Assembly (NCBI GenBank): GCA_017561865.1
Contig: JAFZBH010000030.1
Coordinates: forward strand, 1 to 38,739
DNA length: 38,739 bases
Source of the DNA: Bacteroidales bacterium
GTDB taxonomy: Bacteria; Bacteroidota; Bacteroidia; Bacteroidales; UBA932
Reading direction: 5' to 3'
A program made the position numbers and the translations under genes. Shown in pieces: positions 15,502-37,343 of the stretch. Numbering within the stretch: position 1 is the first letter of the stretch; every line of letters begins with the position of its first letter. The notes below the pieces were generated by a model. It had not been told where the DNA came from, made no database searches, and saw nothing but the letters and a program-made list of their open reading frames with translations.

Positions 15502-15756
15502 TTGTCATCCCGAGCTTGTCGAGAGGCTGGATTCCCTGCGGATATAGCGTGATGAGTAACTCGCTGGGTATCAGCCAGAACTGAAAAGCGTGGGGGTCAT
15601 TTTGACCCCCACGCTTCTTGTAAAACATTCTGGTTCAATCAGTTCCCCATCACGCCTCGACGTACTTTTCCTGAAGGCCAGGATCGGAGCGGAGCGACGC
15701 AGGGGGTTTTTGGGGAACGCCCCCCAATGAATCGGGCCCGCCGGGCCAACGCCTGC
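15502..15756. other. Repeat-rich gap between prfA and fabF
   Basis: 255 bp without a gene, the longest gap in the window. It holds a short repeat-like GTCATCCCGAGCTTGTCGAG (15504-15523, degenerate copy of the dispersed repeat family), the 107-bp palindromic element (15548-15654), a GC-rich part with potential stems (TGGGG/CCCCA near 15711-15726, GGCCC/GGGCC near 15735-15747), and the outer arm of an inverted repeat that enters fabF. A TTTTCCTGAAGGC at 15666-15678 resembles the fabF 3' end (15763-15774). Confidence 0.7.
15548..15654 (+). repeat. 107-bp palindromic element, copy 1
   Basis: Starts with CGTGATG and ends with CATCACG (terminal inverted repeat). The centre is a 14-bp perfect stem, AAGCGTGGGGGTCA (15586-15599) and TGACCCCCACGCTT (15603-15616), loop TTT, with 38 bp on each side. 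It aligns without gaps over the full 107 bp to the reverse complement of 37235-37341, about 80% identical by hand alignment. It lies between convergent prfA and fabF. Confidence 0.85.
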
Positions 15757-15786
15757 TTAGATTTTTCTGAAGGCTAAGCAGGCGTT
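15748..15786. repeat. 13-bp inverted repeat spanning the fabF stop codon
   Basis: AACGCCTGCTTAG (15748-15760) and CTAAGCAGGCGTT (15774-15786) are perfect inverted repeats around a 13-nt loop. The right arm is in the fabF coding end (codons for NACL), and the left arm contains the stop and continues beyond it. In the fabF mRNA this would form a strong hairpin at the end of translation, possibly a terminator or 3' end protector; there is no T run after it. Confidence 0.6.
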
Positions 15787-17001
15787 ATGGCCGCCGAAGC
15801 CGAAGGAATCCGACAAACCGAGATTGACATCCGCCTTGACGGCGACGTTGGGCGTATAGTCCAGGTCGCATTCGGGATCGGGGGCGTCCAGGTGCACCGT
15901 CGGCGGGATGATGCCCTCCTGCAGGGCGAGGACCGTGGCGACGGCCTCGATGGCGCCGGTGGCGCCGAACATATGGCCGTGCATCGACTTGGTGCTGCTG
16001 ATGTGGCACTTGTAGGCAAAATCTCCCATCGCAATCTTGTAGGCCTTGGTCTCGGCGACGTCGTTGAGAAGCGTCCCTGTACCGTGGGCGTTGATGTAGA
16101 CGTTGTCCTTGGCCGGATCGAAGCCCGACTGCTCCATCGCGATGCGGATGCACTCGGCCTGGGTCGTGCCGTCGGGGCGCGGTGCCGTGGCGTGGTAGGC
16201 GTCGCAGGTGCTGCCGTAGCCCGTGACTTCGGCATAGATGTGGGCGCCGCGCGCCTTCGCGTGCTCCATTTCCTCCAGGATCAGGATGGCGGAACCGTCG
16301 GCCATCACGAAGCCGCTGCGGTTGGCGTTGAACGGCAGGGAAGCGTACTGCGGGTCCGTGGAGCGGGTGAGCGCCTTGGCATTCGCGAAGCCGGCGATGC
16401 CGATGGGGATGGTGCAGTGGTCCGTGCCGCCCGCGATCACGGCGTCGGCATAGCCGTGCCGGATGGCGCGGTAAGCCTCGCCGATCGAGTGCGTCGAGGT
16501 GGCGCAGGCCGTCACGATGTCGATGCAGGAGGCCTGGGCGCCGAACTTGATGGCGATCTGCCCGCCCGCCATGTCGCTGATCATCGTCGGGACGAAGTTG
16601 GGCGAGACCCACTGCCCGGATGGATCCTCGAAGAACTTCTCCAGCTCGCGCTGGATGGTCGTGAAGCCGCCGATGCCCGATCCCACGTAGGTGGCCAGGC
16701 GGCCCGGCTCGATGTTCTCGCCGGACACGAGGCCGGCGTCCCGCATCGCCTGCCAGGCGGATGCCATCGCGAAAATGGTGAAGGGATCCTGCTTGCGGAT
16801 GAACGGCTTGTCCATCCCGTACTCCTCCGGATTGAAGTTCCGGACCATGCCGCCGATCTTGACGGCCAGGTTCTCCGTCGGGAACTCCGTGATATAATCG
16901 ATGCCGCACACGCCGTGGACGAGATTGTCCCAAAAAGTCTTGACGTCGTTGCCGATGCAGGACAGGACTCCCAGTCCGGTCACAGCCACTCTTTTGTCCA
17001 T
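15757..17001 (-). CDS. fabF: Beta-ketoacyl-ACP synthase II
   Basis: 414 aa, the condensing enzyme that elongates acyl-ACP with malonyl-ACP in type II fatty acid synthesis. N-terminus MDKRVAVTGLGVLSCIGN; the catalytic Cys166 lies in DIVTACATSTHSIGEA; the two active-site His are in INAHGTGTLLND and STKSMHGHMFGATGA; the end has LSDSFGFGGHNACLAFRK. It begins at the ATG at 17001, chosen because the upstream in-frame extension would precede the promoter. Length is that of a typical FabF. The 3' end carries a 13-bp inverted repeat over the stop codon. It is divergent from the LytTR gene. Confidence 0.96.
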   Translation of the reverse strand: MDKRVAVTGLGVLSCIGNDVKTFWDNLVHGVCGIDYITEFPTENLAVKIGGMVRNFNPEEYGMDKPFIRKQDPFTIFAMASAWQAMRDAGLVSGENIEPGRLATYVGSGIGGFTTIQRELEKFFEDPSGQWVSPNFVPTMISDMAGGQIAIKFGAQASCIDIVTACATSTHSIGEAYRAIRHGYADAVIAGGTDHCTIPIGIAGFANAKALTRSTDPQYASLPFNANRSGFVMADGSAILILEEMEHAKARGAHIYAEVTGYGSTCDAYHATAPRPDGTTQAECIRIAMEQSGFDPAKDNVYINAHGTGTLLNDVAETKAYKIAMGDFAYKCHISSTKSMHGHMFGATGAIEAVATVLALQEGIIPPTVHLDAPDPECDLDYTPNVAVKADVNLGLSDSFGFGGHNACLAFRKI

Positions 17002-17022
17002 AAGTTTCAATTTTTGACTGCG

Positions 17023-17030
17023 CAAAGGTA
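17023..17030 (-). promoter_or_regulatory. -7 box of fabF
   Basis: Minus-strand TACCTTTG (17030-17023), about 21 nt before the fabF ATG. No matching TTTG at 19-21 bp upstream. Confidence 0.5.
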
Positions 17031-17042
17031 GTAAATTATTCT

Positions 17043-17050
17043 TATATTTG
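17043..17050 (+). promoter_or_regulatory. -7 box of the LytTR operon
   Basis: TATATTTG at 17043-17050; the start would be near 17057, before the ATG at 17074. This argues against the GTG at 17050 as start codon. A -33 element is not clear. Confidence 0.5.
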
Positions 17051-17073
17051 TGATTCATAGGAAACCTGAGGGA

Positions 17074-17955: not shown

Positions 17956-17958
17956 ATT

Positions 17959-18360: not shown

Positions 18361-18379
18361 CCCGTAAAACCACATTGAT

Positions 18380-19249: not shown

Positions 19250-19252
19250 GCT

Positions 19253-19783
19253 ATGAGATGCGTGCGCATTGTCGTCCTGATCCTGCTCGCGGCATCCGTG
19301 CTGTCGTGCAAAAGCCCCGGCAAGCCCAAGCGCGAGAAGATCACGGACCCGGAACAGCAGGAAGCCTTGCGGACGCGCAAGGCTGACGTCCCGATCGACT
19401 CCCTGTTCACGGCAGGGGCCCTGAAGGAAGTCCTGTCCCCGTTCGAGAAGATTTCCATCGCCCATTATCTGTCCGACTTCAGAAGCGGGTATGGTGAATC
19501 GGCGGAGCCGGCTGCCCGGAAAAAATACGCCGACCGTCTCCGCAAGAAGGAAAAGATGAAGGAGGAAGAGGCGCTCGAAGCCGCCGCCAAGGCGGATTCC
19601 GCGGCGCTTGCCACGGTCCGCGTCAACACCCTCGACCGGCTGAACGTGACGCGGCAGAACCTGCCGGGCGAGGATTACAACCCGCCCCTGACCCTGTATT
19701 TCATCATCGTCCTGGTCCTGTTCGTGATCATTTTCACGATCCGGGTGATCCTGGCGTTCTTTGTCTCACCCAAACAAGATTAG
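19253..19783 (+). CDS. Lipoprotein with a C-terminal transmembrane segment, unknown function
   Basis: 176 aa. The N-terminus MRCVRIVVLILLAASVLSC carries a lipobox with Cys19. A charged middle, probably helical (RKKYADRLRKKEKMKEEEALEAAAKADS, about 89-116), is followed by a hydrophobic segment close to the C-terminus (LTLYFIIVLVLFVIIFTIRVILAFF, about 147-171). Anchoring at both ends is unusual for a lipoprotein. I do not recognise a family. It is 3 bp after uridine phosphorylase and 4 bp before the zinc-ribbon membrane protein, so a joint function with the latter is plausible (inference). Confidence 0.7.
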   Translation: MRCVRIVVLILLAASVLSCKSPGKPKREKITDPEQQEALRTRKADVPIDSLFTAGALKEVLSPFEKISIAHYLSDFRSGYGESAEPAARKKYADRLRKKEKMKEEEALEAAAKADSAALATVRVNTLDRLNVTRQNLPGEDYNPPLTLYFIIVLVLFVIIFTIRVILAFFVSPKQD

Positions 19784-19787
19784 CCTT

Positions 19788-21548
19788 ATGGACGAGAAAT
19801 TCATCAGAAGGCAGCCCCTTGCCATAGACCAGGAGGCCGAGGCCCGGGTGAAGGAATACATCAACGCCTATGCGGCCTCTTCCGAGGGGCATCCGTTCGC
19901 AGGTTACGGCGACGACATCAAGCTGGAGACCTATGAGCTCTGCCCCATCTACGTGGTGTCGCTGAGGACCCAGTACGACAAAAGGTACGTCAACAGGGGG
20001 CAGTATCCTTTCAAGAATACGACCCTTCCCGTCCGGACGGTCTTCAAGGAGTCCGACGTGGATCCCTGGTCCTTCAAGATGCACACCACGGACCGTTTCG
20101 TCGAGGACAACTGCACCCACGAAGTGGACGGCTCCCAGCACGTGGAGACTTGCGGGACCTGTTCCGGGAAAGGGGAGCTGACCTGCTCCAAGTGTGATGG
20201 ACGGGGGCTTGTGACCTGCTCTTCCTGCGGCGGAGACGGTACCATTCGCTGTACCAGTTGCGGCGGGAAGGGCGGCAGCACTTGCTCCTACTGCCACGGC
20301 ACCGGCGGCGTGCAGCAGTCCTATGAGGAGTCCTATACGATCAGGGACTATACGGGGCGGGAGCAAATCAGATACCGGACGAAATACAAGACGGTCACCT
20401 GCTCGCACTGTCGCGGAAAAGGAACTATTGTCTGCTCCTCCTGCGGCGGCAACGGTAATAAAGTCTGCAGGGAATGCGGAGGCAGCGGGGAGCTTGTCTG
20501 CGGGAATTGCCACGGCACGGGCAAGGTGACCTGCCAGACCTGCAAGGGTTGTGGCCGGCTCGTCCACGCCATCTACGTAGACCAGAAGCTGTATAATACC
20601 CGGAGCAAGGTGTATTTCTTCGATCCCCGGGTCCGCGACGTCGCGGAGATTTATGAAAAGGACAGCTACCGTGGGCAGTGGGTGCTCGACCGGAAGGAAG
20701 AGCGGCTCGAGCGCGGATTCTTCCGCGGCGAGAGCGAGATGGCCGAGCAGCTGGACGGTTTCCTCGATAAACACGCGGAAGACGTTTCGACGGGTTGCCA
20801 CATCCTGTTCCAGCAGGCGGGCATCCTGCGTGTGGACGCCTGGTGGGTAGAGTATACCTACGAGGGGAAGCACTATGACGGCGTCATCTCGGAGGACCAT
20901 TTCTATGCTGGCGTCTCGCCGATCACCGAATTCGGCGACGAAGTCCTGGAGAAGGTGGACAAGGCCCTTGGCGGCACGGGCACGCTCAAGGCCCGCAAGC
21001 TCGTCGAGCAGGCGGAGAGCCTGGACGTGTATGACAACCGTGCCAGGGTCCAGAAGCTGCGGGAACTGGTGGAGAAGCATCTCAACACGTTGTACAGGCT
21101 GGGCACGGACCTGATGTTCTGGCTCATCGCCCTGTTCGTGACGCCTTTCCTGTACAATTTCTACGACAGCCTGAATCCCGTCCTCCGCTACGCGCATTTC
21201 ACCAACGACCCCGCGTGGGCGCCGTACAGCTGGCTGCCGGCCGTCCAGTGCGTCATCTTCCTGATCCTGCTGCTCCTGGCCAGGATCGTGTTGAACGTCA
21301 CCAACCACGGCAAGGACCGCCACGTTTCCGTGTTCGGGTTCATACTGGCCGGAATGGGCGTGTATCTGCTGATTTCGCTCGTGATCCTGGCCGTGCTGCT
21401 GGGCCTGAACTACCTGGGCGTGTCCATCGTGACGACCTGGACGGGTTTTGCCGTGTGGCGCGTGATCCGCTTCTTCCTGTTTGCTGTGGTGCTGATCATC
21501 GCCCTGCTCGTCGAGCTGGTGAAGTGGCTCTGGGGCCTGATCTTCTAG
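19788..21548 (+). CDS. Membrane protein with ten CxxCxGxG zinc-ribbon repeats
   Basis: 586 aa; start ATG 4 bp after the previous stop. Residues 122-255 contain ten CxxC units in two blocks of five: Cys122, 133, 144, 155, 166 and 205, 216, 227, 238, 249, each start exactly 11 residues after the previous within a block, mostly CxxCxGxG as in DnaJ's zinc domain (CSKCDGRG, CSSCGGDG, CTSCGGKG, CSYCHGTG, CSHCRGKG, CRECGGSG). The blocks are joined by about 35 residues (QQSYEESYTIRDYTGREQ). There is no J domain. The C-terminal 150 residues have about four membrane segments (442-458, 483-503, 514-545, 557-580). A membrane-tethered chaperone or RNA-binding role is speculation. The opposite strand is convergent, the esterase stop being 1 bp away. 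Confidence 0.85.
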   Translation: MDEKFIRRQPLAIDQEAEARVKEYINAYAASSEGHPFAGYGDDIKLETYELCPIYVVSLRTQYDKRYVNRGQYPFKNTTLPVRTVFKESDVDPWSFKMHTTDRFVEDNCTHEVDGSQHVETCGTCSGKGELTCSKCDGRGLVTCSSCGGDGTIRCTSCGGKGGSTCSYCHGTGGVQQSYEESYTIRDYTGREQIRYRTKYKTVTCSHCRGKGTIVCSSCGGNGNKVCRECGGSGELVCGNCHGTGKVTCQTCKGCGRLVHAIYVDQKLYNTRSKVYFFDPRVRDVAEIYEKDSYRGQWVLDRKEERLERGFFRGESEMAEQLDGFLDKHAEDVSTGCHILFQQAGILRVDAWWVEYTYEGKHYDGVISEDHFYAGVSPITEFGDEVLEKVDKALGGTGTLKARKLVEQAESLDVYDNRARVQKLRELVEKHLNTLYRLGTDLMFWLIALFVTPFLYNFYDSLNPVLRYAHFTNDPAWAPYSWLPAVQCVIFLILLLLARIVLNVTNHGKDRHVSVFGFILAGMGVYLLISLVILAVLLGLNYLGVSIVTTWTGFAVWRVIRFFLFAVVLIIALLVELVKWLWGLIF

Positions 21549-21549
21549 C

Positions 21550-22491
21550 TTAATACAGATCCCGGGCGGTCGCTTTGGCCCAGTCCGGGACGGGGATTTC
21601 CTCGTCCCGGACGAGGGCGTCGAGCGGGCGGTGTATGCCGCGGATCACGTTCTCTTCCAGGAAGCGGAGCTCCTCGGGGAGGTTGCGCCGCATCGTGGCG
21701 GCGATCTCGTGGCCGGAACCCTCGAAGCGATAGATCTGATAGTTCGCCCCGGCCTTCTTCAGCTTCTTGGACAGGGCGTCGCTGCCGGCGAACTGCTTGC
21801 CCGGCAGGGAGATCTGTCCGTAAGGGACGATCTTGTCGGCGGTGCCGTGCAGCAGCAGGACCGGACAGGGTTTCTGCGGGAAGCGTATCTTCCCTTCCAT
21901 CGAAAAGACGGCGCCCGAAAAGGCCATGATGCCTGCATAGTTGAAACCGGCGGGAAGCCCCTTTGCGCCCTCCATTCCGTTGCAGATCTCCCATTCGGCT
22001 TCGAGGGCCGTGATGGCGCCCGCCGACGAGCCGCTGACGATGATCCGCTCGGGATCGATGCCGAGCGACTCCGCGTTGTCCAGCAGATAAAGGGTGGCGG
22101 CGAACAGGTCATCCACGGCCATCTGGACGGCGCTCCGGAGCACGGGGAGCAGGGACAGGCGGTTTTTGGGATGCACCCCCTTCATCCCCAGCCGGTAGTC
22201 GATGGCGGCCACGTGGTAGCCCGCATCGGCGAGCTCCCGGTACCAGATACAGTCTCCCGGCTGGTTGCGCTGCCCCATCACGAAACCGCCCCCGAAGACG
22301 TGGATGACGAGCGGCTTGCGCTCCGCATCGGCGCAGGGGCCGCTGCCGGGCGCGGCGGCGTAGAAGTCCAGCAGCAGCTCGCACGTGTCGCGCTGCGCAA
22401 AAAGCAGGGTGGCATCCGGGCCGGCAGGGCGCTCCTGGGCGTACAGGGAGGCGCAGGACAGGAGCAGGATCAGGGGCAGGAATCGTTTCAT
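21550..22491 (-). CDS. Secreted alpha/beta hydrolase (esterase)
   Basis: 313 aa with a signal peptide (MKRFLPLILLLSCASLYA). The fold signature HVFGGGFVMGQRNQPGD supplies an oxyanion hole of the GGG type, VAAIDYRLG follows, the nucleophile Ser is in IIVSGSSAGAITALEAE (GxSxG), the Asp is probably in LLLHGTADKIVPYG and the His in FEGSGHEIAATM. This suits BD-FAE/carboxylesterase families. Substrate unknown; carbohydrate esters or acyl esters are typical. Its ATG overlaps the stop of the Clp-N gene by one base, so both are co-translated from one transcript. It converges on the zinc-ribbon gene with only 1 bp between stops. Confidence 0.88.
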   Translation of the reverse strand: MKRFLPLILLLSCASLYAQERPAGPDATLLFAQRDTCELLLDFYAAAPGSGPCADAERKPLVIHVFGGGFVMGQRNQPGDCIWYRELADAGYHVAAIDYRLGMKGVHPKNRLSLLPVLRSAVQMAVDDLFAATLYLLDNAESLGIDPERIIVSGSSAGAITALEAEWEICNGMEGAKGLPAGFNYAGIMAFSGAVFSMEGKIRFPQKPCPVLLLHGTADKIVPYGQISLPGKQFAGSDALSKKLKKAGANYQIYRFEGSGHEIAATMRRNLPEELRFLEENVIRGIHRPLDALVRDEEIPVPDWAKATARDLY

Positions 22492-23045
22492 CAGCTATAC
22501 AGGTTGGTGGGGTCGCCGGCTTCGCTCCACAGGCGGGTGAGCTGTTCGCCCAGCGGGCCCAGCAGGTCTTCGATACGGGGCAGGACCGTCTCCGAGGGCG
22601 GCAGGGCGAAGTTCCGTTCGCGCATCAGTGAATACAGGGAGGCGTAGTCGAGCTGCCGGTCGCGGAGCAGGTCCGCGGCGGTGCTCTCTTCGTGCCGGAC
22701 GAGCGAGAGCAGCAGGTGGGTCGAGAAGATGTCGTGTCCGCCTTGCTTGAGCGCTTCATAGGCGGCTCCGCCCACGAGCGCGGCGGCGCCGCGCGTCGGC
22801 CGTATCCGCCCCTGGTCCTGCCAGGGGACCGCCCGGTCGGCAAAGATACGCTCGTCGATGGCCTGCTTGAGCGCCTCCAGGTCCACCCCGCAGGCGGTCA
22901 GCACGCGACAGGCATCATTGTCCCGGTGGCGCAGCAGGCCGAGCGCGATGTGGTCCGCGCCCAGGCCGTAGCTGCCGGTGCGCATCGCCTCGTCGCGGGC
23001 GTAGCAGAGGATGGTCTGCAGTTCTGCTGAAAACTTGATCTCCAT
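22491..23045 (-). CDS. Stand-alone Clp N-terminal domain protein
   Basis: 184 aa with two Clp repeats of the ClpA/ClpC N-domain type: FSAELQTILCYARDEAMRTGSYGLGADHIALGLLRHRDNDACRVLTACG, then AYEALKQGGHDIFSTHLLLSLVRHEESTAADLL. There is no AAA+ module, so it cannot unfold substrates by itself; lone Clp-N proteins (ClpS-like adaptors or decoys) may hand substrates to ClpC or compete for adaptors (inference). The rest is a C-terminal tail of about 50 residues (VLPRIEDLLGPLGEQLTRLW). Coupled by a one-base overlap to the esterase gene. Promoter -7 box at 23062-23069. Confidence 0.87.
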   Translation of the reverse strand: MEIKFSAELQTILCYARDEAMRTGSYGLGADHIALGLLRHRDNDACRVLTACGVDLEALKQAIDERIFADRAVPWQDQGRIRPTRGAAALVGGAAYEALKQGGHDIFSTHLLLSLVRHEESTAADLLRDRQLDYASLYSLMRERNFALPPSETVLPRIEDLLGPLGEQLTRLWSEAGDPTNLYS

Positions 23046-23061
23046 CGGTCCAAATTATGGA

Positions 23062-23069
23062 CAAAAATA
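23062..23069 (-). promoter_or_regulatory. -7 box of the Clp-N/esterase run
   Basis: Minus-strand TATTTTTG (23069-23062), 16 nt before the ATG at 23045. No clear -33 element. Confidence 0.5.
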
Positions 23070-23092
23070 GCAAATTAATCGGATTTTTTGGT

Positions 23093-23100
23093 TAATTTTG
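23093..23100 (+). promoter_or_regulatory. -7 box of gyrA
   Basis: TAATTTTG at 23093-23100, about 26 bp before the gyrA ATG at 23127. No clear -33 element at the usual distance. Confidence 0.5.
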
Positions 23101-23126
23101 CGTGTTTAGAACTATAGTGTTTTTTT

Positions 23127-25673: not shown

Positions 25674-25704
25674 AAGTAATTTTAACTTATAAACGTATAA
25701 CCCG

Positions 25705-27024: not shown

Positions 27025-27030
27025 TCGACT

Positions 27031-28149: not shown

Positions 28150-28153
28150 AAAA

Positions 28154-28184
28154 TTGTGCAAATATAAGAAAATTGGTAAATTTG
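28154..28184 (+). promoter_or_regulatory. Promoter of the SPOR-M28-leuS-YitT operon
   Basis: TTG (28154-28156) and TAAATTTG (28177-28184), 20 bp apart. The -7 box is only 6 nt from the ATG at 28191, so the mRNA probably begins at or near the start codon. Confidence 0.7.
28159..28166 (-). promoter_or_regulatory. -7 box of the CapA-like gene
   Basis: Minus-strand TATATTTG (28166-28159), 9 nt upstream of the ATG at 28149. The -33 element is not evident. It overlaps the promoter of the divergent SPOR gene. Confidence 0.45.
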
Positions 28185-28190
28185 CGGCTT

Positions 28191-28724
28191 ATGAAGAAAA
28201 TTTTGGCCATAGCCTCGCTCATCGCGTCGGTGTGCCTGCTGGGTGGATGCGACTTCTTCCGCCAGCTGGCGGGCCGTCCGACCTCGCAGGACATCGAGCA
28301 GAAGCGGCTGGTCCTCGAGCAGCGGGCTGCCGTGCTCAGGCAGCAGGAGGATTCCCTGCGCCTGGTCCGGGAGCGTGAGCAGGAGCTGAAGAGGCTCGAA
28401 GCGGATTCGCTTGCGGCGCTGGAGGAACTGCGCACTTCCAAGGTGAAGGTGATTCCTTCTCCGCGCGTGGCTTCCGCCCGGGCGGAACTGGCTTATGAAT
28501 ACTATGTGATGATCGGGGCGTTCAGCGTGCCCGAGTTTGCCCGGAATCAGGCATCCAGGGCGGAGCAGGCCGGCTACACGGCCGTGCAGATCCCGTTCAG
28601 GAACGGCATCACCGCCGTGGGCGCCTGCCCGTCGAACAGTCTGGCCGAAGTCCTCTCCTCGTTGAAGAAACTGCGCGGCGAGAGTTTCTGCCCCGCCGAA
28701 GCCTGGATCCTCCATAAAGAATAG
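28191..28724 (+). CDS. SPOR-domain lipoprotein
   Basis: 177 aa. Lipoprotein signal MKKILAIASLIASVCLLGGC (Cys20). A coiled-coil middle at about 34-85 (QKRLVLEQRAAVLRQQEDSLRLVREREQELKRLEADSL in pieces) is followed by a SPOR domain at about 102-170: YYVMIGAFSVPEFARNQA, AEQAGYTAVQIPFRNG and a closing CPAEAWILH. SPOR domains bind denuded septal peptidoglycan. The ATG at 28191 is chosen; the in-frame codon at 28173 lies before the -7 box. M28-like gene follows 4 bp later, suggesting envelope function in the same transcript as leuS. Confidence 0.9.
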   Translation: MKKILAIASLIASVCLLGGCDFFRQLAGRPTSQDIEQKRLVLEQRAAVLRQQEDSLRLVREREQELKRLEADSLAALEELRTSKVKVIPSPRVASARAELAYEYYVMIGAFSVPEFARNQASRAEQAGYTAVQIPFRNGITAVGACPSNSLAEVLSSLKKLRGESFCPAEAWILHKE

Positions 28725-28728
28725 CGCC

Positions 28729-30051
28729 ATGAGAAGGATCCTGACCTGCCTGGCGCTGCTGTGCGCCGCCCTGTGCGCTTCCGCCCAATATCGTTCGTCC
28801 TACGGCTCGCTCGAAGACAGCGAGGCCGTCGCCGCGATGAAGGAGCACGTCCTGAGCCTGTCGGCCGCCGCCCTGGAGGGCCGCAAGGCCGGCTCGGAAG
28901 GGGAGCGGGACGCCGCCACTTATGTCACGGAGGTGCTCTCCTCCTATGGCCTGGACCTGTTCAGCGGAAAGGAGGGCGACCTGTTCGGCCTCAAGCGGGA
29001 AAACGGCGACACGCTCACTTCCCGCAATGTCCTGGGCTGCATCCCCGGTTACGACCCGGCCCTGCGCGAACACTACATCGTGGTGGGGGCGCGCCTGGAC
29101 AATCTCGGCAAGATGGAATACACCGTGGACGGAGAGCGCCGCGAGCGCATATACTACGGTGCCAACGGCAACGCTTCCGGCCTGTCGCTGCTCCTCGAGC
29201 TCGCCCGGATGCTTTCGCGCAACAGCGTGCTGCTGAGGCGCAGCGTCATTATCGCCGCCTTCGGCTCGTCGCTGGAATCGGGCGCCGGGGCCTGGTATTT
29301 CCTGAACCGTTCGTTCCCGGACGTGGAACGCATCGACGCGATGGTCAACCTCGACATGCTCGGCACGCCCTCCGGCGGCTTCTACGCCTACACGGCGTCC
29401 AATCCCGACCTGAACGTGCTGCTGGACCAGGTGAACGCCACCCTCCAGCCGGTCGTGCCGAAGACGGTCTCGCTCGAGCCCGTCTCCTCCGACCACAGGA
29501 TCTTCTATGACAAGGAGATTCCTTCGGTGTTCTTCACCACCGGGATGTATCCCGAATACAACTCCGACCGCGACACCGCTTCCATCCTGGAATACGACGG
29601 GATGGAGCGCGAACTGGAATACCTGTACAACTTCACCGTAGCCCTGGTCAACGGCCGCAAACCCGAGTTCCGCCGCGACGAATCCGCCCGCAAGCAAAGC
29701 GCGAATGATGTGGTATCCTTCTTCGACTGCGACGTCAGGCCCACCTTCTTCCGCTCCAACGATCCGTCGGAGTTCCTGCGGAAATGGGTGTACACCTATC
29801 TCCGTTATCCGCAGAGCGCGGTCGACGAAGGAGTGCAGGGCCGGGTGCTGGTCGATTTCGTCATCGACGAGAAAGGAAAGGTCCGGGATGTGACCGTCGC
29901 CCGCGGGGTGGATCCGCGCCTGGACGCCGAGGCCGTGCGGGTGATCGCCGCGTCGCCGGACTGGAAGCCGGGCGTGCTCCGCGGCAAGAAAGTGAAGACC
30001 GCCCTGTCGGTATATGTGGAATTCAGATTGGAAAAGAAGAAGAAAAAATAG
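28729..30051 (+). CDS. Inactive-looking M28 peptidase domain fused to TonB C-terminal domain
   Basis: 440 aa with signal peptide ([19 protein letters not shown]). Residues about 30-310 are an M28-type aminopeptidase fold ([72 protein letters not shown]). Compared with Aeromonas aminopeptidase, the metal and catalytic residues are lost: His97 is Arg122, the Asp of GADDNASG is absent (GANGNASG), the Glu pair is Ser181-Leu182, His256 is Asn278; only the Asp of NLDM (209) and the SDH remain. Residues about 355-436 form a TonB_C domain ([42 protein letters not shown]). It is probably a binding scaffold. leuS starts 2 bp later. Confidence 0.85.
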
Positions 30052-30053
30052 AT

Positions 30054-32792
30054 ATGGATTACGATTTCAAATCGATCGAGAGCAAATGGCAGGCCCGCTG
30101 GGCTGCAGAAAAGACCTTCCGGGTGAGTGAAGACCCCGCCAAACCGAAGTATTACGTGCTGGATATGTTCCCGTATCCGTCCGGCGCCGGGCTGCACGTG
30201 GGGCATCCGCTGGGCTACATCGCCAGCGACATCTTCTCGCGCTACAAGCGCCTCAAGGGCTTCAACGTCCTGCACCCGATGGGCTACGACGCTTTCGGCC
30301 TCCCGGCCGAGCAGTATGCCATCCAGACGGGCCAGCACCCGGAGGTGACGACCGAGCGGAACATCGCCCGCTACCGCGAGCAGCTGGACCGGATCGGTTT
30401 CTCCTACGACTGGGACCGCGAGATACGCACCTGCGACCCCGGCTACTACAAGTGGACGCAGTGGGCTTTTCTGCAGATGTTCGACAGCTGGTATGATCCC
30501 GACCTGGACAAGGCCCGCCCGATCTCGGAGCTGGTCAGCCGCTTCGAGACGACCGGCTACGAAGATGTCAGCGCGGAGCGGTGGAAGGCCGCTTCCGAGA
30601 AGGAGAAATCCGACATCCTGATGCGTTACCGCATCGCCTATCAGGGCGAAACCTCGGTCAACTGGTGCGAGGGGCTCGGCACGGTGCTCGCCAACGACGA
30701 AGTCAAGGACGGGCTGAGCGTCCGCGGCGGATTCCCGGTGGAGCAGAAGAAGATGACCCAGTGGCAGCTGCGCGTGTCAGCCTATGCGGGGCGCCTGCTC
30801 GACTCGCTGGAGAAGCTCGACTGGACCGATTCGCTCAAGGAGATGCAGCGCAATTGGATCGGCCGCAGCGAAGGCACCGAAATGGTGTTCAATACGGTCT
30901 GCGACGGACGCGAGCTGCCGATCACCATCTTCACGACCCGCGCCGACACCATCTATGGCGTGACCTTTATGGTCCTCGCCCCCGAGAGCGAACTGGTGGA
31001 GAGCCTGACCGCCGCCGACCGCAAGGCCGAGGTGGAGCAGTATATCCAGGCCGTGAAGAAGAAGACGGAGCGCGAGCGCATCGCCGAGACCCGTACGGTC
31101 ACGGGCGTGTTCGCCGGCTCCTACGGCATCAACCCGGTGACCGGGGAGAAGATCCCGATCTGGATCTCCGAATACGTCCTCGCGGGCTACGGCACCGGCG
31201 CCATCATGGCCGTTCCGGCTCACGACAGCCGCGACTATGCCTTTGCGAAGAAGTTCGGCCTGCCGATCGTCCCGCTGATCGAGGGCTGCGACGTCTCGCA
31301 GGAGTCGTTCGACGCCAAGGACGGCATCATGTGCAACTCCGGCTTCCTGAACGGGATGACGGTCAAGCAGGCCATCGAGGCCGCCAAGGATTACGTGGAG
31401 GCCCACGGCCTGGGCCGCCGCAAGACGAATTACCGCCTGCGCGATGCGATTTTCTCGCGCCAGCGCTATTGGGGAGAGCCTTTCCCGGTCTGCTACAAGC
31501 CGGACGGCACCCCGACGCCGCTCCCGCTGTCGGCCCTGCCGCTCCGCCTGCCGGAGATCGACTCCTTCAAGCCGTCCCCGGACGGGCAGCCGCCCCTGTC
31601 CCGCGCCAAGGACTGGACCTGGGACGGGTATCCGCTGGAAAAGAGCACGATGCCGGGTTTCGCCGGGTCGAGCGCCTACTATCTCCGCTATATGGACCCG
31701 CACAACGACGAGGCACTCGTCAGCCGCGAAGCCGACGAGTACTGGCGTAACGTCGACCTGTACATCGGCGGCACGGAGCACGCCACCGGACACCTGATCT
31801 ATTCCCGCTTCTGGAACAAGTTCCTCTACGACCGCGGCTGGGTGTGCGAGGACGAGCCGTTCCGCAAACTCATCAACCAGGGAATGATCCAGGGCCGCTC
31901 CAACTTCGTCTACCGCCTGGTCGGGACGAATACCTTCGTCTCCCTGGGCCTGAAGGACAAGTACGAGACCACCGAAATCCACGTGGACATCAACCTCGTG
32001 CACAACGACCGGCTCGACCTGGAGGGCTTCCGCCGCTGGCGGCCCGACTTCGCCGATGCCGAGTTTATCCTCGAGGACGGCGAGTACATCTGCGGCTGGG
32101 CCGTCGAGAAGATGAGCAAGTCGATGTACAATGTCGTCAACCCCGACGACATCTGCGACCGCTACGGCGCCGACACCCTCCGCCTCTACGAGATGTTCCT
32201 GGGACCCCTGGAGCAGAGCAAGCCCTGGGACACCAAGGGCATCGACGGCGTGGCCCGCTTCCTGAAAAAGCTCTGGAGGCTCTACACGGACCGCGAGGGC
32301 TTCATCGTGACGGATGACAAGCCGACGCCCGCCGAGCTGAAGGTCCTGCACCGCCTGATCGGCAAGGAGCAGGAAGATATCGAGAGCTTCTCCTACAATA
32401 CGACCATCAGCGCCTTTATGATCGCGGTGGGAGAACTGACGGCGCTGAACTGCCACAAGCGCGAAATCCTCGAGCCGCTCTGCGTGCTCCTGTCGCCATT
32501 CGCCCCGCATATCGCCGAAGAACTGTGGGAGATGCTCGGCCACGCCGAGAGCGTCAGCTTCGCCCGCTTCCCCGAGTATGTCGCCGCCTGGACGGTGGAG
32601 GACAACGTGACCTATCCGGTCCAGTTCAACGGCAAGATGCGTTTCACCGTGGACCTGCCGAAGAGCGCGTCCCCCGCCGAGGTCGAAGCCGCCGTGCGCG
32701 GGATGGAACAGACCGGGCGCTGGGTCGGCGCCGGACAGATCGTCAAGGTCGTCGTGGTGCCCGGAAGAATCATCAACATCGTTGTGAAATGA
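30054..32792 (+). CDS. leuS: Leucyl-tRNA synthetase
   Basis: 912 aa, class I synthetase that charges tRNA-Leu. HIGH motif variant in [13 protein letters not shown] (His51 end), the editing CP1 domain with [20 protein letters not shown] and [19 protein letters not shown], the YWGEPFPV segment and the KMSKS motif near residue 686 ([16 protein letters not shown]). The C-terminal anticodon-binding helices precede [10 protein letters not shown] and [13 protein letters not shown]. The ATG at 30054 was chosen; earlier in-frame sequence belongs to the M28 gene. It overlaps YitT by 4 bp (ATGA), so it lies within a five-gene operon. Confidence 0.97.
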
Positions 32793-33721
32793 CACGCAAA
32801 GCCGTTCTCCGTACCATCTGGGAATACCTGACGCTGACCCTGGCCTGCTTCATCTTCGCGATTGCCTGGGAGTGCTTCATGATTCCCAACGGGATGTCCG
32901 CCGGCGGGATGATGGGTCTGTGTACCGTCCTCCAGTACGCTACGGGCGGACTGATTCCCGCGCAATATACCTATATCGCCATCAATGCGATCCTGATCGT
33001 GGTCGCCGTGATCGCGATGGGGATCGGGTTCGGGTTCAAGACCATCTGGTGCATCGTGATGTCCACCCTCGCGATGGAGATCCTGTCGCGGGTGACGGCG
33101 CTGCACGCCATCCCCGGTTCCTTCTTCTATATGCAGGAGCGCCTGCTGGTCCCGGTCGTGGCCGGCGTGTTCGAGGCCGTCGGACTGGGTCTGGTGCTGC
33201 GCTACGGCGGCAGCACGGGCGGCACCGACATCATCGCCCTGATGATCAACAAGTACTGGCCCGTCTCGCTGAGCACCGTGTTCCTCCTGTCGGACGTGGT
33301 GATCTGCGCCATGCTGCTCCTGCTTCCGGAGAAGACCTTCTCCGATATGTGCTACGGTCTGTCGGAGGTGGTGATCTTCTCGCTGGTGATCGACATCGTC
33401 GTGGGCGGCAAGCGCTCGTCCTATCAGCTGCTGGTCTTCTCCGAGCATTACGACAAGATCGCCGACCATATCATCTACAATATGGACCGGGGCGTGACCG
33501 TGCTCCGGGCCCAGGGCTGGTATACCAAGTCCGACAAGAACGTGCTGCTGATCCTCATCAACCAGACCCAGATGGCGGAGCTGTCCCGGGTCATCAAGGA
33601 TATCGATCCGCGCGCGTTCATGTCCATCTCCCCGACGCGCAGCGTCTATGGCGAAGGGTTCGAGGAGATCAAGACGGGGGTCAAGCTGAAACTCAAGAAA
33701 AAAGACAATGACACTGCTTAA
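32789..33721 (+). CDS. YitT family membrane protein, paralogue 1
   Basis: 310 aa, YitT_membrane with DUF2179 at the C-terminus. About six transmembrane segments lie in residues 12-205 ([96 protein letters not shown]), with the family motif [18 protein letters not shown]. The DUF2179 domain includes [19 protein letters not shown] and the tail [21 protein letters not shown]. The function of the family is unproven; a transport role is often suggested. ATG 32789 overlaps the leuS stop (ATGA). The next gene is a paralogue overlapping by 14 bp. Confidence 0.9.
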
Positions 33722-34646
33722 GAAGTCTTTCTGGACGGGGGTCAAGGAATACACCCTGATCACCCTCGGCGTGCTGATGTACGTGACGGGCTGGATCATC
33801 TTCCTGATTCCGAACAACATGGTCGGCGGCGGCGTGACCGGTCTGGGCTCCATCGTGCAATATGCCACGGGCGGGGCGGTGAAGATCGGCTACACCTATT
33901 TCGTCGTCAACGCCGGGCTGCTGATCGCGGCCCTGTTCACCCTGGGACGCAGTTTCGGCGCCAAGTCGGTCTACGCCATCCTGCTGACGTCGGTCACGCT
34001 CAACATCGGGCAGGACATCTTCCCGCAGGAGATCATCCAGATCCTGGCCCTGGACAACGGCAAGCTGATGTGCACCATCATGGGCGGCATCATGGTGGGC
34101 ATCGGCATCGGGATGTCCATCTCGCAGGGCGGCAGCACGGGCGGCACCGACATCATCGCGCTGATCGTCAACAAGTACCGGAACGTCTCGCCGGGCCGGA
34201 TGATCCTGATCATGGATGCCGTGATCATCCTGTCGTCCCTGTTCGTGCCTTCCTATATGTCGGACGGGACGTTGATGAGCTGGCCGGACAAGATTACGAC
34301 GGTGGTCTATGGTTTCATCCTGATCACCATCGTCAGCACGGTGCTGGACCTGTATCTGTCCGGTTCCCGGCAGTCGGTGCAGATTTTCGTCCTGTCCCCG
34401 AAGTACGCCGAGATCGCGGACGCGATCACCAACGACCTGCACCGCGGCGTGACCGTGCTCAACGGCAAGGGCTGGTACACCCAGCACGACACCCAGGTGG
34501 TGATGGTCATCACCCGCAAGGCGGACCTCAACGTTTTCCTGAAGTACATCAACACCATCGATCCGAACGCGTTCGTATCCGTTTCGTCCGTCACGGGCGT
34601 CTACGGGAAGGGTTTTGACCGATTCAAAACGGGTGGTAAAAAATAA
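33708..34646 (+). CDS. YitT family membrane protein, paralogue 2
   Basis: 312 aa, same architecture as the preceding gene. TM segments include LITLGVLMYVTGWIIFLIP, YTYFVVNAGLLIAALFTLG, and MCTIMGGIMVGIGIGMSIS followed by [18 protein letters not shown], the family motif. The DUF2179 region has LHRGVTVLNGKGWYTQHDTQ and ends IDPNAFVSVSSVTGVYGKGFD. It overlaps paralogue 1 by 14 bp (start ATG at 33708), so the pair is translationally coupled and may form a heteromer. A strong terminator (34679-34722) closes the run. Confidence 0.92.
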   Translation: MTLLKKSFWTGVKEYTLITLGVLMYVTGWIIFLIPNNMVGGGVTGLGSIVQYATGGAVKIGYTYFVVNAGLLIAALFTLGRSFGAKSVYAILLTSVTLNIGQDIFPQEIIQILALDNGKLMCTIMGGIMVGIGIGMSISQGGSTGGTDIIALIVNKYRNVSPGRMILIMDAVIILSSLFVPSYMSDGTLMSWPDKITTVVYGFILITIVSTVLDLYLSGSRQSVQIFVLSPKYAEIADAITNDLHRGVTVLNGKGWYTQHDTQVVMVITRKADLNVFLKYINTIDPNAFVSVSSVTGVYGKGFDRFKTGGKK

Positions 34647-34678
34647 ATCCACATCGAAAATCACAATTTTTGAAATTA

Positions 34679-34722
34679 CCCCCGAACTGACCACCCTCAG
34701 TTCGGGGGCCTTTTTTATTTTT
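34679..34722 (+). terminator. Intrinsic terminator after the leuS-YitT run
   Basis: CCCCCGAACTGA (34679-34690) pairs perfectly with TCAGTTCGGGGG (34697-34708), loop CCACCC, followed by CC and a T-rich run (34711-34722). This is the clearest rho-independent terminator in the window. Confidence 0.9.
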
Positions 34723-34723
34723 G
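34716..34723 (+). promoter_or_regulatory. -7 box of the AraC-type regulator, inside the terminator T run
   Basis: TATTTTTG at 34716-34723 lies in the T run of the upstream terminator. The start would be near 34730; the ATG is at 34747. No TTTG element at the usual distance. Confidence 0.45.
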
Positions 34724-34725
34724 CC

Positions 34726-34747
34726 GTCGCGAATAAGTGAGTCGCGA
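34726..34747. repeat. GTCGCGA direct repeats before the AraC-type gene
   Basis: GTCGCGA at 34726-34732 and again at 34741-34747 (15 bp apart), each containing the palindrome TCGCGA. The second overlaps the A of the ATG. A possible autoregulatory operator, unproven. Confidence 0.35.
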
Positions 34748-35739
34748 TGAAACACAAGTGCGTCATTTCCTTTTTCGGCTGCATATGCGCCGTCTCCGTG
34801 TTCTGCCTGTTGTTCCCGCCGGCCGTGCTGGCCTGGCGCACCGCCGCGTTCCCGCCTCCGGCGGCGCTCGCGGCCGGTCTGCTCTGTGCCGGTGCCGTAC
34901 TGCTCCTGCTGCCGGTCGGGGACGAGTATGTCCGCTCGTCGCTGTATTTCGCCCTGGGGCTCGGTGCCGTCACGGTGGCGGGCGTGGTGCTGGCGCTGCC
35001 GCTGCGCGCCACCCTTCTCGGGGTGCTGTGCGTGCAGGGGCTGTGCCTGCTGCGCCGCGGCCGGGCGCGTTACGCCCAGATCCAGCCGCTGTTCCGGGGG
35101 ATGGCCATCTGGTATAACATCGAGAGCCACGCGCGCCTGTCCTATTCGCTCTTTCTTTATCTGCTGGTGGCGGCATTTCCGTCCGAAGGGGCGGCCGCCT
35201 GGACGGGTTGGGCGCTGCTGGGACCTTCGCTCGCGCTTTACATCGCGCTGGTCGTGCGCGTGAGGACCGGACGGACCTGTTATCTGGGCGCAGCCCGGGA
35301 GATCGAGATCAAGGACCTGATCCGGGGCAATCTCCGGACGGCGCCCCTGCAGGCGGGCGCGAAGACCGAAGAGCTGTCGCGGATGGTGCGCCTGTACGAG
35401 CGCGTGGTTTCGCTGATGGAGCAGAAGCATCCCTTCCTGGACGAGGAGTTCAGCCTGGAAGACCTGGCGAATTCGGTCTACACCAACCGCAGCTACCTTT
35501 CGAAAACGATCAACATCCTGTCGGGGCGCAACTTCAGCCAGTTCGTCAATTATTACCGCGTGCGTTACGGGGCGGAGCTGATGAAGAAGGATCCGAAACT
35601 GCGCCTGACCAGCGTGGCGCAGATGTGCGGCTTCCATTCCGGTCCGACGTTCAACGCGGCATTCAAGATCAATATGGGGGAGACGCCCTCCGCTTTCCTG
35701 GAGCGCCTCCGCGAGGAGAAATATGCCAAAAAAGGCTAG
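34747..35739 (+). CDS. Membrane-anchored AraC-family transcription regulator
   Basis: 330 aa. The N-terminal half is hydrophobic with about six segments (CVISFFGCICAVSVFCLLF, AALAAGLLCAGAVLLLLP, GLGAVTVAGVVLALPL, LSYSLFLYLLVAAFP, LGPSLALYIALVV), as in membrane-embedded AraC regulators of Bacteroidetes. The C-terminal 100 residues are an AraC HTH domain: FSLEDLANSVYTNRSYLSKTINILSGRNFSQFVNYYRVRYGAELMKKDPKLRLTSVAQMCGFHSGPTFNAAFK in pieces, with two helix-turn-helix units. Its stop shares a CTAG with the convergent RluA-type gene (stops overlap at 35736-35739). The signal it senses is unknown. Confidence 0.92.
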   Translation: MKHKCVISFFGCICAVSVFCLLFPPAVLAWRTAAFPPPAALAAGLLCAGAVLLLLPVGDEYVRSSLYFALGLGAVTVAGVVLALPLRATLLGVLCVQGLCLLRRGRARYAQIQPLFRGMAIWYNIESHARLSYSLFLYLLVAAFPSEGAAAWTGWALLGPSLALYIALVVRVRTGRTCYLGAAREIEIKDLIRGNLRTAPLQAGAKTEELSRMVRLYERVVSLMEQKHPFLDEEFSLEDLANSVYTNRSYLSKTINILSGRNFSQFVNYYRVRYGAELMKKDPKLRLTSVAQMCGFHSGPTFNAAFKINMGETPSAFLERLREEKYAKKG

Positions 35740-36461
35740 TCCAGCCCTTTCCAGGATGCGGGAAGGGGGGCGGTGAGGGTCATCTCTTCCTTGCGGACGG
35801 GATGGACGAAGCGGATGCTGCGGGCGTGCAGGCAGATGCCGCCGTCGGGATTGGAGCGCGGCGCGCCGTATTTGAGGTCGCCCTTGACGGGGCAGCCCAG
35901 GTGGGCGAGCTGGCAGCGGATCTGGTGGTGGCGGCCGGTGAGCAGCTCGACTTCCACGAGGTGGTAGCGGTCGGTGCTGCGAAGATAGCGGTAGTTCAGC
36001 CTGGCAAGCTTGGCCTCCGGATAGCGGGCGGGTTTGGGCACGGAGCCGGGAGCGACGATATAGGATTTGTTCTGCTGCTCGTTGCGGTTCAGCCATTCCT
36101 CCAGATGCCCCTCGGGGGGCTCGGGCCGCGCGCAGCAGAGCGCCCAGTAAGTCTTGCGGACGTTCCCGTCGCGCCACGCTTCCGTCAGCCGCTCCAGGGC
36201 CTTGGAGGTCTTGGCGAGCACGCAGACCCCGCTTACGGGCCGGTCCAGGCGGTGGGGCAGCCCCAGGAAGACCTTGCCCGGCTTGGCGTCCCGCTGGGCG
36301 ATGAAGGCCTTGTAGGTCTCCGTCAGGGGCTCGTCGCCCGTCTTGTCGCCCTGCGTGATCTCGCCCACGCGCTTGCACACCACCAGCAGGTGGTTGTCCT
36401 CATAGAGGATACGCCCCGCCAGGTCGTCGAACTCTTCCTTTGTCAGTTGCCGGTACTCCAT
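35736..36461 (-). CDS. RluA-family RNA pseudouridine synthase
   Basis: 241 aa; isomerises uridine to pseudouridine in rRNA or tRNA. The catalytic Asp73 is in LPHRLDRPVSGVCVLAKT, preceded by ILYEDNHLLVVCKRVGEITQ and followed by KTYWALC, and later LTGRHHQIRCQLAHLGCPVKGDLKYG, the RluA signature. There is no S4 domain. Target unknown. The ATG at 36461 is only 4 nt from a -7 box (36466-36473), so its mRNA is likely leaderless. It overlaps the AraC gene at their stops and is divergent from higB. Confidence 0.93.
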   Translation of the reverse strand: MEYRQLTKEEFDDLAGRILYEDNHLLVVCKRVGEITQGDKTGDEPLTETYKAFIAQRDAKPGKVFLGLPHRLDRPVSGVCVLAKTSKALERLTEAWRDGNVRKTYWALCCARPEPPEGHLEEWLNRNEQQNKSYIVAPGSVPKPARYPEAKLARLNYRYLRSTDRYHLVEVELLTGRHHQIRCQLAHLGCPVKGDLKYGAPRSNPDGGICLHARSIRFVHPVRKEEMTLTAPLPASWKGLD

Positions 36462-36465
36462 ACCG

Positions 36466-36496
36466 CAAAGATAACATTTGTTACGTGAAGCCGCAA
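36466..36496 (-). promoter_or_regulatory. Promoter of the RluA-type gene, leaderless layout
   Basis: Minus-strand TTG (36496-36494), 20 bp, TATCTTTG (36473-36466), then CGGT and the ATG at 36461. Transcription should start at or within a few bases of the start codon. Confidence 0.65.
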
Positions 36497-36515
36497 TAAT
36501 TATTATTTCTATAAT

Positions 36516-36546
36516 TTTGTTAATATTTTTATAATTCTTATTTTTG
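36516..36546 (+). promoter_or_regulatory. Promoter of higBA, leaderless layout
   Basis: TTTG (36516-36519), 19 bp, TATTTTTG (36539-36546), then CACT and the ATG at 36551. The region around 36500-36546 is markedly AT-rich compared with the rest of the window. Confidence 0.72.
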
Positions 36547-36550
36547 CACT

Positions 36551-36844
36551 ATGAGAGTGATTTCAATAGCCGCATTGCGGAACTATTGGGAGAAGCACCC
36601 GGACACGAGGCTTCCGCTCAGTGAATGGTACGTCAGGACCTGTAATGCGCATTGGAGGTCATTGGCTGATATGCGAAAAGACTTCAATTCCGTCGATTAT
36701 GTCGGAAACCAACGGTATGTGTTCAACATCAAAGGGAATGGGTATCGCTTGGTGGTGGCTGTGAAATTCACGCCCGAATTGGTCTATATCCGTTTTGTCG
36801 GGACTCATTCGGAATATGATAAGATAGATTGTAAAACGATTTGA
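36551..36844 (+). CDS. higB: HigB-type toxin of a type II toxin-antitoxin pair
   Basis: 97 aa, of the HigB (mRNA interferase) family: MRVISIAALRNYWEKHPD at the start, then PLSEWYVRTCNAHWRS, SVDYVGNQRYVFNIKGNGYRLVVAVKF and YIRFVGTHSEYDKID near the end. HigB toxins cut mRNA at the ribosome. It lies 7 bp before the antitoxin gene, the toxin-first order usual for HigBA. The promoter leaves only 4 nt before the ATG. Base use is less GC-rich than in neighbouring genes, suggesting later arrival (inference). Confidence 0.9.
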   Translation: MRVISIAALRNYWEKHPDTRLPLSEWYVRTCNAHWRSLADMRKDFNSVDYVGNQRYVFNIKGNGYRLVVAVKFTPELVYIRFVGTHSEYDKIDCKTI

Positions 36845-36851
36845 CAGCGAA

Positions 36852-37214
36852 ATGGCGCAGATTAAAAATGAACAGCAGTACAAGGCGATGATGGACAGGA
36901 TCGATGCCTTGTTCTTCGAAACGGACGAGAATACGCCCGGTGATGACCCTCGTCTGTTGGAACTGGATATCCTGTCCGCGCTTGTGGAGGAATACGAAAA
37001 GGAGCACTATCCGATTCTGCCGCCTACGCTTACCGAAACCATGGCAGAACGGATCAACGAAGCCGGGATGACCCAGAAAGAAGCTGCTTCCCTGTTAGGG
37101 ATGTCCGCCCCGAGGCTCTGTGCCATTCTGGGAGGTAAAGTGCAGCCGACATTCGAGCAGGCGCGCACCATTGCATCGCGACTGCATATAGATCCGGCTA
37201 TCATCCTTGCATAA
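36852..37214 (+). CDS. higA: HigA-type antitoxin with XRE helix-turn-helix
   Basis: 120 aa. N-terminal helical part (IKNEQQYKAMMDRIDALFFE) and a C-terminal XRE-type HTH around 73-105: MTQKEAASLLGMSAPRLCAILGGKVQPTFEQARTIASRLHIDP. HigA neutralises HigB and represses the operon; autorepression through the 36516-36546 promoter is inferred. The gene follows higB after 7 bp and is less GC-rich than its surroundings. Convergent with dnaK; the 129-bp gap contains copy 2 of the 107-bp palindromic element. Confidence 0.9.
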   Translation: MAQIKNEQQYKAMMDRIDALFFETDENTPGDDPRLLELDILSALVEEYEKEHYPILPPTLTETMAERINEAGMTQKEAASLLGMSAPRLCAILGGKVQPTFEQARTIASRLHIDPAIILA

Positions 37215-37234
37215 CTTTCCCTGGCATAGGAAAA

Positions 37235-37341
37235 CGTGATGAGGAAATGATTAAGCCAGAGTGCTTTACAAGAAGCGTGGGGGCCTTCTGGACCCCCACG
37301 CTTCTTAGTTCTTGCTGATACTCAGCATTTTATCCATCACG
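37235..37341 (-). repeat. 107-bp palindromic element, copy 2
   Basis: CGTGATG at 37235-37241 and CATCACG at 37335-37341 bracket a central inverted repeat AAGCGTGGGGG...CCCCCACGCTT (37273-37303, short interior loop). The reverse complement aligns without gaps to copy 1, about 80% identical by hand. It lies between convergent higA and dnaK, ending 2 bp before the dnaK stop codon. No target duplication was found. Confidence 0.85.
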
Positions 37342-37343
37342 GC

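Follow-up and report, generated by a model that had tools for sequence, protein, structure and literature searches.

The 38,739-nt stretch analysed here, positions 1 to 38,739 of contig JAFZBH010000030.1 from a Bacteroidales bacterium (hereafter the window; contig C43 of a 1.58-Mb assembly in 89 contigs that is 56% complete), carries two 107-bp palindromic elements, copy 1 and copy 2, which belong to a larger family. The reading that we favour, with a probability of about three in four, is that the copies belong, as non-autonomous elements, to a transposase system resembling REPtrons and TIRtrons, and that settled copies act as bidirectional terminators. Within this reading it is likely that the elements are served by the transposase, a mobile-element origin and a setting at gene 3' ends are supported, and a terminator role is plausible from the sequences. 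The predicted partner, to judge by its motifs, is a HUH/Y1 transposase of about 305 aa, of the type known as repetitive extragenic palindrome (REP)-associated tyrosine transposase (RAYT).

Elements and transposase genes are found together. Two covariance models were used, R1, built from four copies (copy 1, copy 2 and those on contigs C48 and C37), and R2, built from 68 aligned elements. Our set of 50 transposase loci comprised 30 from a profile search of the genus and 20 picked from its listing, one of which (G136:C31) had already been seen with a nearby element; 13 of the 50 had contributed elements to R2 and 37 had not. An R2 match (E <= 0.1) lies within 400 bp at all 50 loci, on both sides in 37 and on one side in 13, a few of these matches, such as those at L165, L184 and the right side of L162, being weak or incomplete. 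Within the 37 flanking pairs, left and right ends score 13.35 of 18 alike as against 7.91 between different loci, and the centres 19.49 as against 8.15 (0/10000 permutations). As a control, 80 fabF loci, mostly from other bacteria (555,518 bases), gave no R2 match. Among 41 genomes the median number of element matches is 47 where the transposase is matched below 1e-45 (n=25) and 2 in the other 16 (p 2.4e-5). The transposase gene on contig C59 of the window's own genome has elements on both sides, and the same subfamily (B) is also dispersed there; in G058 the gene is flanked by CGTGAT-type elements, and in G396, where it is in three pieces, two CGTGACC elements lie in the same locus. Six loci holding at least two elements were read; in five of them the elements enclose a protein of 302-331 aa, and the sixth (L061) has no such protein. 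At L061 1513-1885 (G037), open frames with internal repeats lie between two elements.

All five enclosed proteins match REP_Tyr_transpos, below its cut-off; for Y1_Tnp there are four matches at E <= 0.1, of which three exceed the curated cut-off. For 30 aligned members of the protein family the counts are 27 for Y1_Tnp (E <= 0.1) and 30 for REP_Tyr_transpos (E <= 0.01), and the RAYT model NF047646 of NCBIfam is matched by 30/30 at E <= 0.01, the six scores given (22.8-49.7 bits) lying below its curated cut-off of 80 bits. The HxH residues (H60, H62) and Y120, N123 and N124 are invariant in 30/30 and P125 is present in at least 90%, so that the HuH and Y---NP signatures are both evident. The proteins also have a C-terminal extension; the Pfam domains matched in the 30 members do not include DnaA_C, HTH_23 or HTH_28. 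In the genus sample a transposase match (E <= 1e-6) occurs in 76/101 genomes, and below 1e-45 in 58, and in the phylum sample the threshold of E <= 1e-15 is reached in 9/394 other genomes, where no match extends past position 180 of the 308 in the model; in that sample and at that threshold the C-terminal part was seen in this genus only. A search for viral relatives of the transposase found none, and a search of solved structures returned weak matches only, to five Y1 transposases (E 0.04-0.8) and one unrelated protein. A weak Y1-transposase-like match (E 1e-9) was also noted within an 899-aa open frame at G000:C26:2701-3063.

The elements (56 copies; 68 aligned) share a single order of parts, in which an outer stem starting with CGTG is followed by a foot, a small hairpin of the approximate form YTGATnATCAG, the triplets TTA and AAA, a central stem that is rich in GC and closed by a short loop, and then the mirror image, both arms bearing the same motif in inverted order. 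Lengths range from 103 to 111 bp, 48/68 aligned copies being 107 or 108, and the commonest foot, GTAA or GCAA, is found in 37/68 on each side. Two helices covary: 88.1% of cells are paired compared with 57.1% when shuffled, double changes occur in 22/22 pairs compared with 18.6, and the covariation score is 0.745 compared with 0.188 (0/500 shuffles reach it), slid structures scoring 0.115-0.182. G-U pairs make up 16/535 paired cells of the inner central stem (columns 42-51) and 31/152 of its outer three pairs (columns 36-38); because they are so scarce in the inner stem, which is nearly pure Watson-Crick, pairing there is kept in a form valid for both strands. The Rfam scan, made on the window, gave no match at the gathering score.

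Using copy 1 as a blastn query we find three other full-length copies in its own genome, namely copy 2, C48 and C37 (E 1.8e-22, 4.0e-21 and 8.8e-14), and a central-stem pattern allowing up to three mismatches finds four places, all with none (a control pattern found 0); the repetition is therefore not a matter of chance. R1 adds one strong copy (C66) and one weak copy (C59). The original prediction had proposed a genome-wide search with a covariance model, and further copies do exist: R2 at E <= 1 marks 19 places in this genome (35 matches with both strands counted; one place partial), the window contributing the two known copies only. The 16 of these 19 places that were read fall into subfamilies differing in both stems, plus some single ones. 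Subfamily A, which includes the window copies, has 107 bp, CGTGATG-type ends and the GCGTGGGGG stem; subfamily B has 108-109 bp, CGTGAG-type ends and ATTATG in the stem; and subfamily C has 104 bp and ends that are mostly CGTTTTT. Among four subfamily-A copies the central stem is uniform (0/22 columns vary), and variation elsewhere affects 33/62 columns of the arms, 7/9 of the loop and 3/14 of the outer stem.

An absence of further copies, which had been named beforehand as an outcome that would speak against the prediction, is thus not what was found in this genome, nor is it in the genus, where R1 matches (E <= 0.1) occur in 54/101 genomes and R2 matches (E <= 0.01) in 33/41 sampled genomes, own included in both. 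With at most 94 candidates scored in each genome, the R2 count in a single genome rises to at least 94 matches, or about 47 places, since the 94 include both strands. In a sample of the order, with the best 13 candidates per genome scored, there was one weak match each in 2/294 other genomes and none in one genome of the same genus. Covariance models are needed because ordinary DNA similarity searching does not reveal the family beyond this species (0/100 relatives), and the exact central-stem pattern had 0 matches in wider genome-contig and viral-contig collections. The best relatives of the window's FabF are from rumen Bacteroidales or Bacteroidia metagenome-assembled genomes (MAGs), at 93 and 96% identity over the best segment, the one at 93% being a named roe-deer rumen MAG; genomes with RUG names we take to be rumen MAGs. 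The genus may be Cryptobacteroides. R1 gave no match on 23 loci found through FabF.

To judge the sites, a simple purpose-made gene caller was applied around 59 copies for which no flanking transposase was known. Of these copies, 32 lie between convergent genes, 19 between codirectional genes and 1 between divergent genes (52 classifiable), 5 are at a contig edge and 2 are inside a called gene. The gene ends that face them are 89 3' ends, at a median of 10 nt, and 22 5' ends, at a median of 144.5 nt. The convergent excess holds in comparison both with 158 junctions from other loci, of which 35 are convergent (p = 3e-7), and with 57 gaps of at least 60 bp, of which 16 are convergent (p = 5e-4), the comparison loci overlapping partly and some of them containing elements. 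Scattering without regard to gene orientation, also anticipated as an adverse outcome, is not seen, since the copies examined favour convergent junctions.

Comparison of related genomes reveals both occupied and empty sites. At the glyA site two genomes (G008 and G058) are empty, the next gene being the same and no element separating it from glyA, and the junction of glyA with a convergent neighbour common to G395 and G137 (flanks 89% and 79% identical) holds an element in G395 and a terminator-like hairpin followed by TTTTATTTTT in G137. A syntenic site with homologous flanks is occupied by element, transposase and element in G125 (L023 1501-2700) and by a single element in G139 (L031 1501-1607). 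The nadD copy has 11 relative loci without an element, which do not amount to a clean empty site because the downstream gene differs, and prfA/fabF affords no empty-site test because the sequence after fabF in the two closest relatives is unlike the window. Elements with different stems are present at several of the same gene 3' ends in two or three species, and we judge that this fits chance or hot spots.

A full-length transposase gene associated with elements of the window's type is present in the close relative G395 (glyA 90% identical), at C43:7642-8541 of that genome, with a CGTGATG element 70 bp off on one side; an element of the same CGTGATG type follows glyA in G395. In the window's own genome the C48 element, which lies after glyA, is succeeded by 94 bp that have 79% identity (E 4e-17) with the beginning of the G395 transposase gene and the sequence preceding it, and that read MENRKFFQGAWH where the G395 transposase start has MKNRRFYPGAWH. 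A transposase gene of this kind thus stood beside the C48 element and has been lost except for its start.

The mechanism that we propose begins with a HUH/Y1 transposase of the RAYT type (about 305 aa) that would recognize the element as a folded single strand, the fold consisting of the outer stem, the inverted arms with a foot (most often GTAA or GCAA) and small hairpin, and the central stem, and that would have moved or copied elements to sites beside gene 3' ends. We infer that the transposase binds and moves the elements as single-stranded DNA. A settled copy might then, and for this step there is less support, serve the genes meeting at it as an intrinsic terminator in both directions, because the GC-rich centre is bordered by A and T tracts; terminator action would in turn give a reason for copies being tolerated and retained where genes converge. 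The central stem with its A and T tracts resembles an intrinsic terminator that works both ways, and in copy 2 the stop codon of the DnaK-type gene is only 2 nt away from the element. The elements may double as bidirectional terminators.

Several observations weigh against this interpretation. The T tracts are short, column counts giving at least 4 T of 8 in 54/68 elements on each strand and at least 5 T of 8 in only 29 and 23 of 68 on the two strands, and a terminator scan that used this same density (>= 5 T in 8) flagged neither central hairpin of the window copies, only a side hairpin of copy 2. One genome, G030, has 91 element matches (both strands) and no transposase in the genome search or in the six stretches examined (L249-L251, L253-L255), and in another, G036, the transposase frame is interrupted by a stop and the element search gave 0 matches. 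The assembled part of the window's own genome yielded no intact transposase for the window's subfamily. Neither a target-site signature nor a near-identical recent copy was established, no target duplications being seen in flanks read by eye, and placement at 3' ends can also come from purging of insertions elsewhere.

A rival explanation is that of bidirectional terminators owned by the host, old elements without present mobility that are kept for their hairpin and whose link to the transposase is historical. We consider this unlikely, even though it would fit the median of 10 nt to facing stop codons and the convergent bias, the glyA junction at which the G137 terminator-like hairpin takes the place of the G395 element between homologous flanks, the sparing of the subfamily-A central stem from change, and the A/T tracts at the stem feet (>= 4 of 8 in 54/68, each strand). 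A fixed 107-bp build with conserved arms and outer stem far exceeds the needs of a terminator; moreover, element pairs are present at 37/50 transposase loci, sites differ among related species, and 19/52 copies lie between codirectional genes.

The original prediction held that the elements may be similar to miniature inverted-repeat transposable elements (MITEs), and the mobile-element origin implied by that term is supported, although a MITE of an ordinary transposon has not emerged, the linkage being to a HUH/Y1 (RAYT-type) transposase. Inverted ends, fixed length and intergenic copies would all suit MITEs derived from some transposon that escaped detection and has terminal inverted repeats (TIRs) of the ordinary sort, the Y1 gene being a mere passenger between two of them, but target duplications were not seen in the flanks read by eye, the gene enclosed by element pairs encodes a Y1 protein in 5/6 loci, and every transposase gene has its own matching element pair, all of which makes this explanation quite improbable. 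Even less credible is a structured RNA, regulatory or at 3' ends and repeated by happenstance, which had also been suggested: strong covariation of two helices would be expected of it, yet the window has no Rfam match, the copies follow genes (divergent 1/52), G-U pairs are few in the nearly pure Watson-Crick inner stem, and the elements are linked to a DNA transposase, so that a stand-alone RNA is not needed. Readings as attC, riboswitch or CRISPR were set aside on anatomy alone.

Table 1. Positions of the two elements, their parts and the genes that face them in the window
Feature	Position	Strand	Basis
Copy 1, whole element, subfamily A, 107 bp	15548..15654	+	R2 92.6 bits
Copy 1, outer stem, 5' side, CGTGATG	15548..15554	+	Helix 1 of covariation table; R2 alignment
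Copy 1, outer stem, 3' side, CATCACG	15648..15654	+	Helix 1 of covariation table; R2 alignment
Copy 1, left arm: foot GTAA and small hairpin GCTGGGTATCAGC	15556..15575	+	Conserved arm positions in aligned copies
Copy 1, central hairpin AAGCGTGGGGG-loop-CCCCCACGCTT	15586..15616	+	Exact pattern match; helix 2 of covariation table
Copy 2, whole element, subfamily A, 107 bp, reverse of copy 1	37235..37341	-	R2 86.7 bits
Copy 2, central hairpin	37273..37303	-	Exact pattern match; helix 2 of covariation table
RF-1-type gene, 3' end faces copy 1 at 46 nt	14410..15501	+	Pfam PCRF, RF-1
FabF-type gene, 3' end faces copy 1 at 102 nt	15757..17058	-	Pfam ketoacyl synthase
Helix-turn-helix gene (HigA-like position), 3' end faces copy 2 at 20 nt	36852..37214	+	Pfam HTH_3
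DnaK-type gene, cut by window end, stop codon 2 nt from copy 2	37344..38711	-	Pfam HSP70

In the window itself the earlier description of the two copies (Table 1) is borne out in its essentials. Both are exactly 107 bp, and they agree without gaps at 86/107 positions when one is reverse-complemented, close to the 80% claimed, and at 61/107 otherwise; the CGTGATG/CATCACG ends and the common central stem AAGCGTGGGGG/CCCCCACGCTT are as described; and both lie between convergent genes, RF-1-type and FabF-type for copy 1, and HigB-type plus helix-turn-helix and DnaK-type for copy 2. Since each copy is identical to its own reverse complement at 60/107 positions, they are imperfect palindromes. The statement that they are the only features of two wide convergent gaps is apt for copy 2, which nearly fills its 129-bp gap, and not for copy 1, whose 255-bp gap has about 148 bp of other sequence; similarly, the elements had been said not to resemble a transposase-bearing element, and the family does have a linked transposase, although that gene is not in the window.

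Some other features of the neighbourhood may be recorded. The helix-turn-helix gene just ahead of copy 2 forms a toxin-antitoxin-like pair with a HigB-type toxin gene (PF09907, E 1e-30; window 36551-37214). Beside copy 1, window 15680-15790 has one stretch related to a tandem repeat of about 100 bp that lies after fabF in the relative RGIG4901 (L062 4250-4488), where it runs off the contig end. A 12-pair hairpin followed by CCTTTTTTAT at 34679-34708 (+ strand) has the look of an ordinary terminator, and window 19400-38739 contains 15 promoter-like matches compared with 4.4 expected from shuffles.

Why RAYT/REP systems persist in bacteria is an open question, and this family, with its near-fixed length, tens of copies per genome, co-existing subfamilies, visible transposase loss and tight tie to gene 3' ends, makes it testable whether elements of the RAYT/REP type are kept for supplying terminators; it also provides an annotation rule for intergenic palindromes of a rumen genus. 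A bolder suggestion, which we offer tentatively and regard as doubtful, is that a HUH transposase system peculiar to this genus distributes bidirectional terminators in finished form and keeps their hairpins uniform within one genome's subfamily, while the letters of both stems are free to differ between species and pairing is retained. If this were true, DNA-hairpin recognition by a transposase would rewrite whole-genome termination signals.

We judge the family to be a new variant of REPtron/TIRtron systems, because a search of the open-licence literature, by title or passages, turned up no description of it. The marks of such systems are present, in that the transposase is flanked by its repeats (50/50 loci) and repeat copies occur elsewhere in the genome (19 places). 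With a bidirectional intrinsic terminator the elements share an A tract, GC-rich stem, T tract and frequent convergent-gene setting, and they differ from one in the conserved arms and the outer stem that enclose the centre, in having short T tracts and in forming a repeated family. They are not CGTC-tagged REPs, the ends being CGTG-like (fourth base G in 75%) and the length about 107 bp rather than that of a short single hairpin, and the foot GT[AG]G of REPs and REPINs is not among the commonest feet listed for the 68 elements. REPINs are present in hundreds of copies per genome. Like the REPINs and bacterial interspersed mosaic elements (BIMEs) described with their RAYTs in excerpts of PMC3116915, the elements are non-autonomous extragenic palindromic repeats made of inverted unit pairs, with one cognate transposase each; they differ in the absence of GT[AG]G from their commonest feet, a length of about 107 bp and tens of copies per genome or fewer.

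Among TnpAY1 transposases, as excerpts of PMC6006769 describe them, class 2 has the Y---NP signature, and within it subclass 2.1 has C-terminal HTH domains (DnaA_C, HTH_23, HTH_28) and holds 20/26 TIRYTs, and subclass 2.6 is mostly from Bacteroidetes, with a median length of 179 aa and atypical flanking structures that have copies elsewhere. Our family resembles the subclass 2.6 REPtrons in phylum, in its atypical flanking structures with copies elsewhere and in Y---NP, and differs in the length of its transposase, about 305 aa versus a median of 179, the structures being compared by description only (PMC6006769). TIRtrons are, according to excerpts of PMC3733652, RAYT-like genes flanked by long inverted repeats, many of the TIRs containing the motif GGGGWSAS and others being described without it. 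To these TIRtrons or TIRYTs the present system is similar in having a RAYT-like HUH/Y1 gene between long inverted repeats other than GTAG REPs, and in repeat families that are moderately abundant and include some partly or wholly self-complementary repeats; it is set apart from them, as portrayed in the same excerpts (PMC3733652), by GGGGWSAS in 0/68 elements and by flanks that are each a full 107-bp palindrome in which two stems covary.

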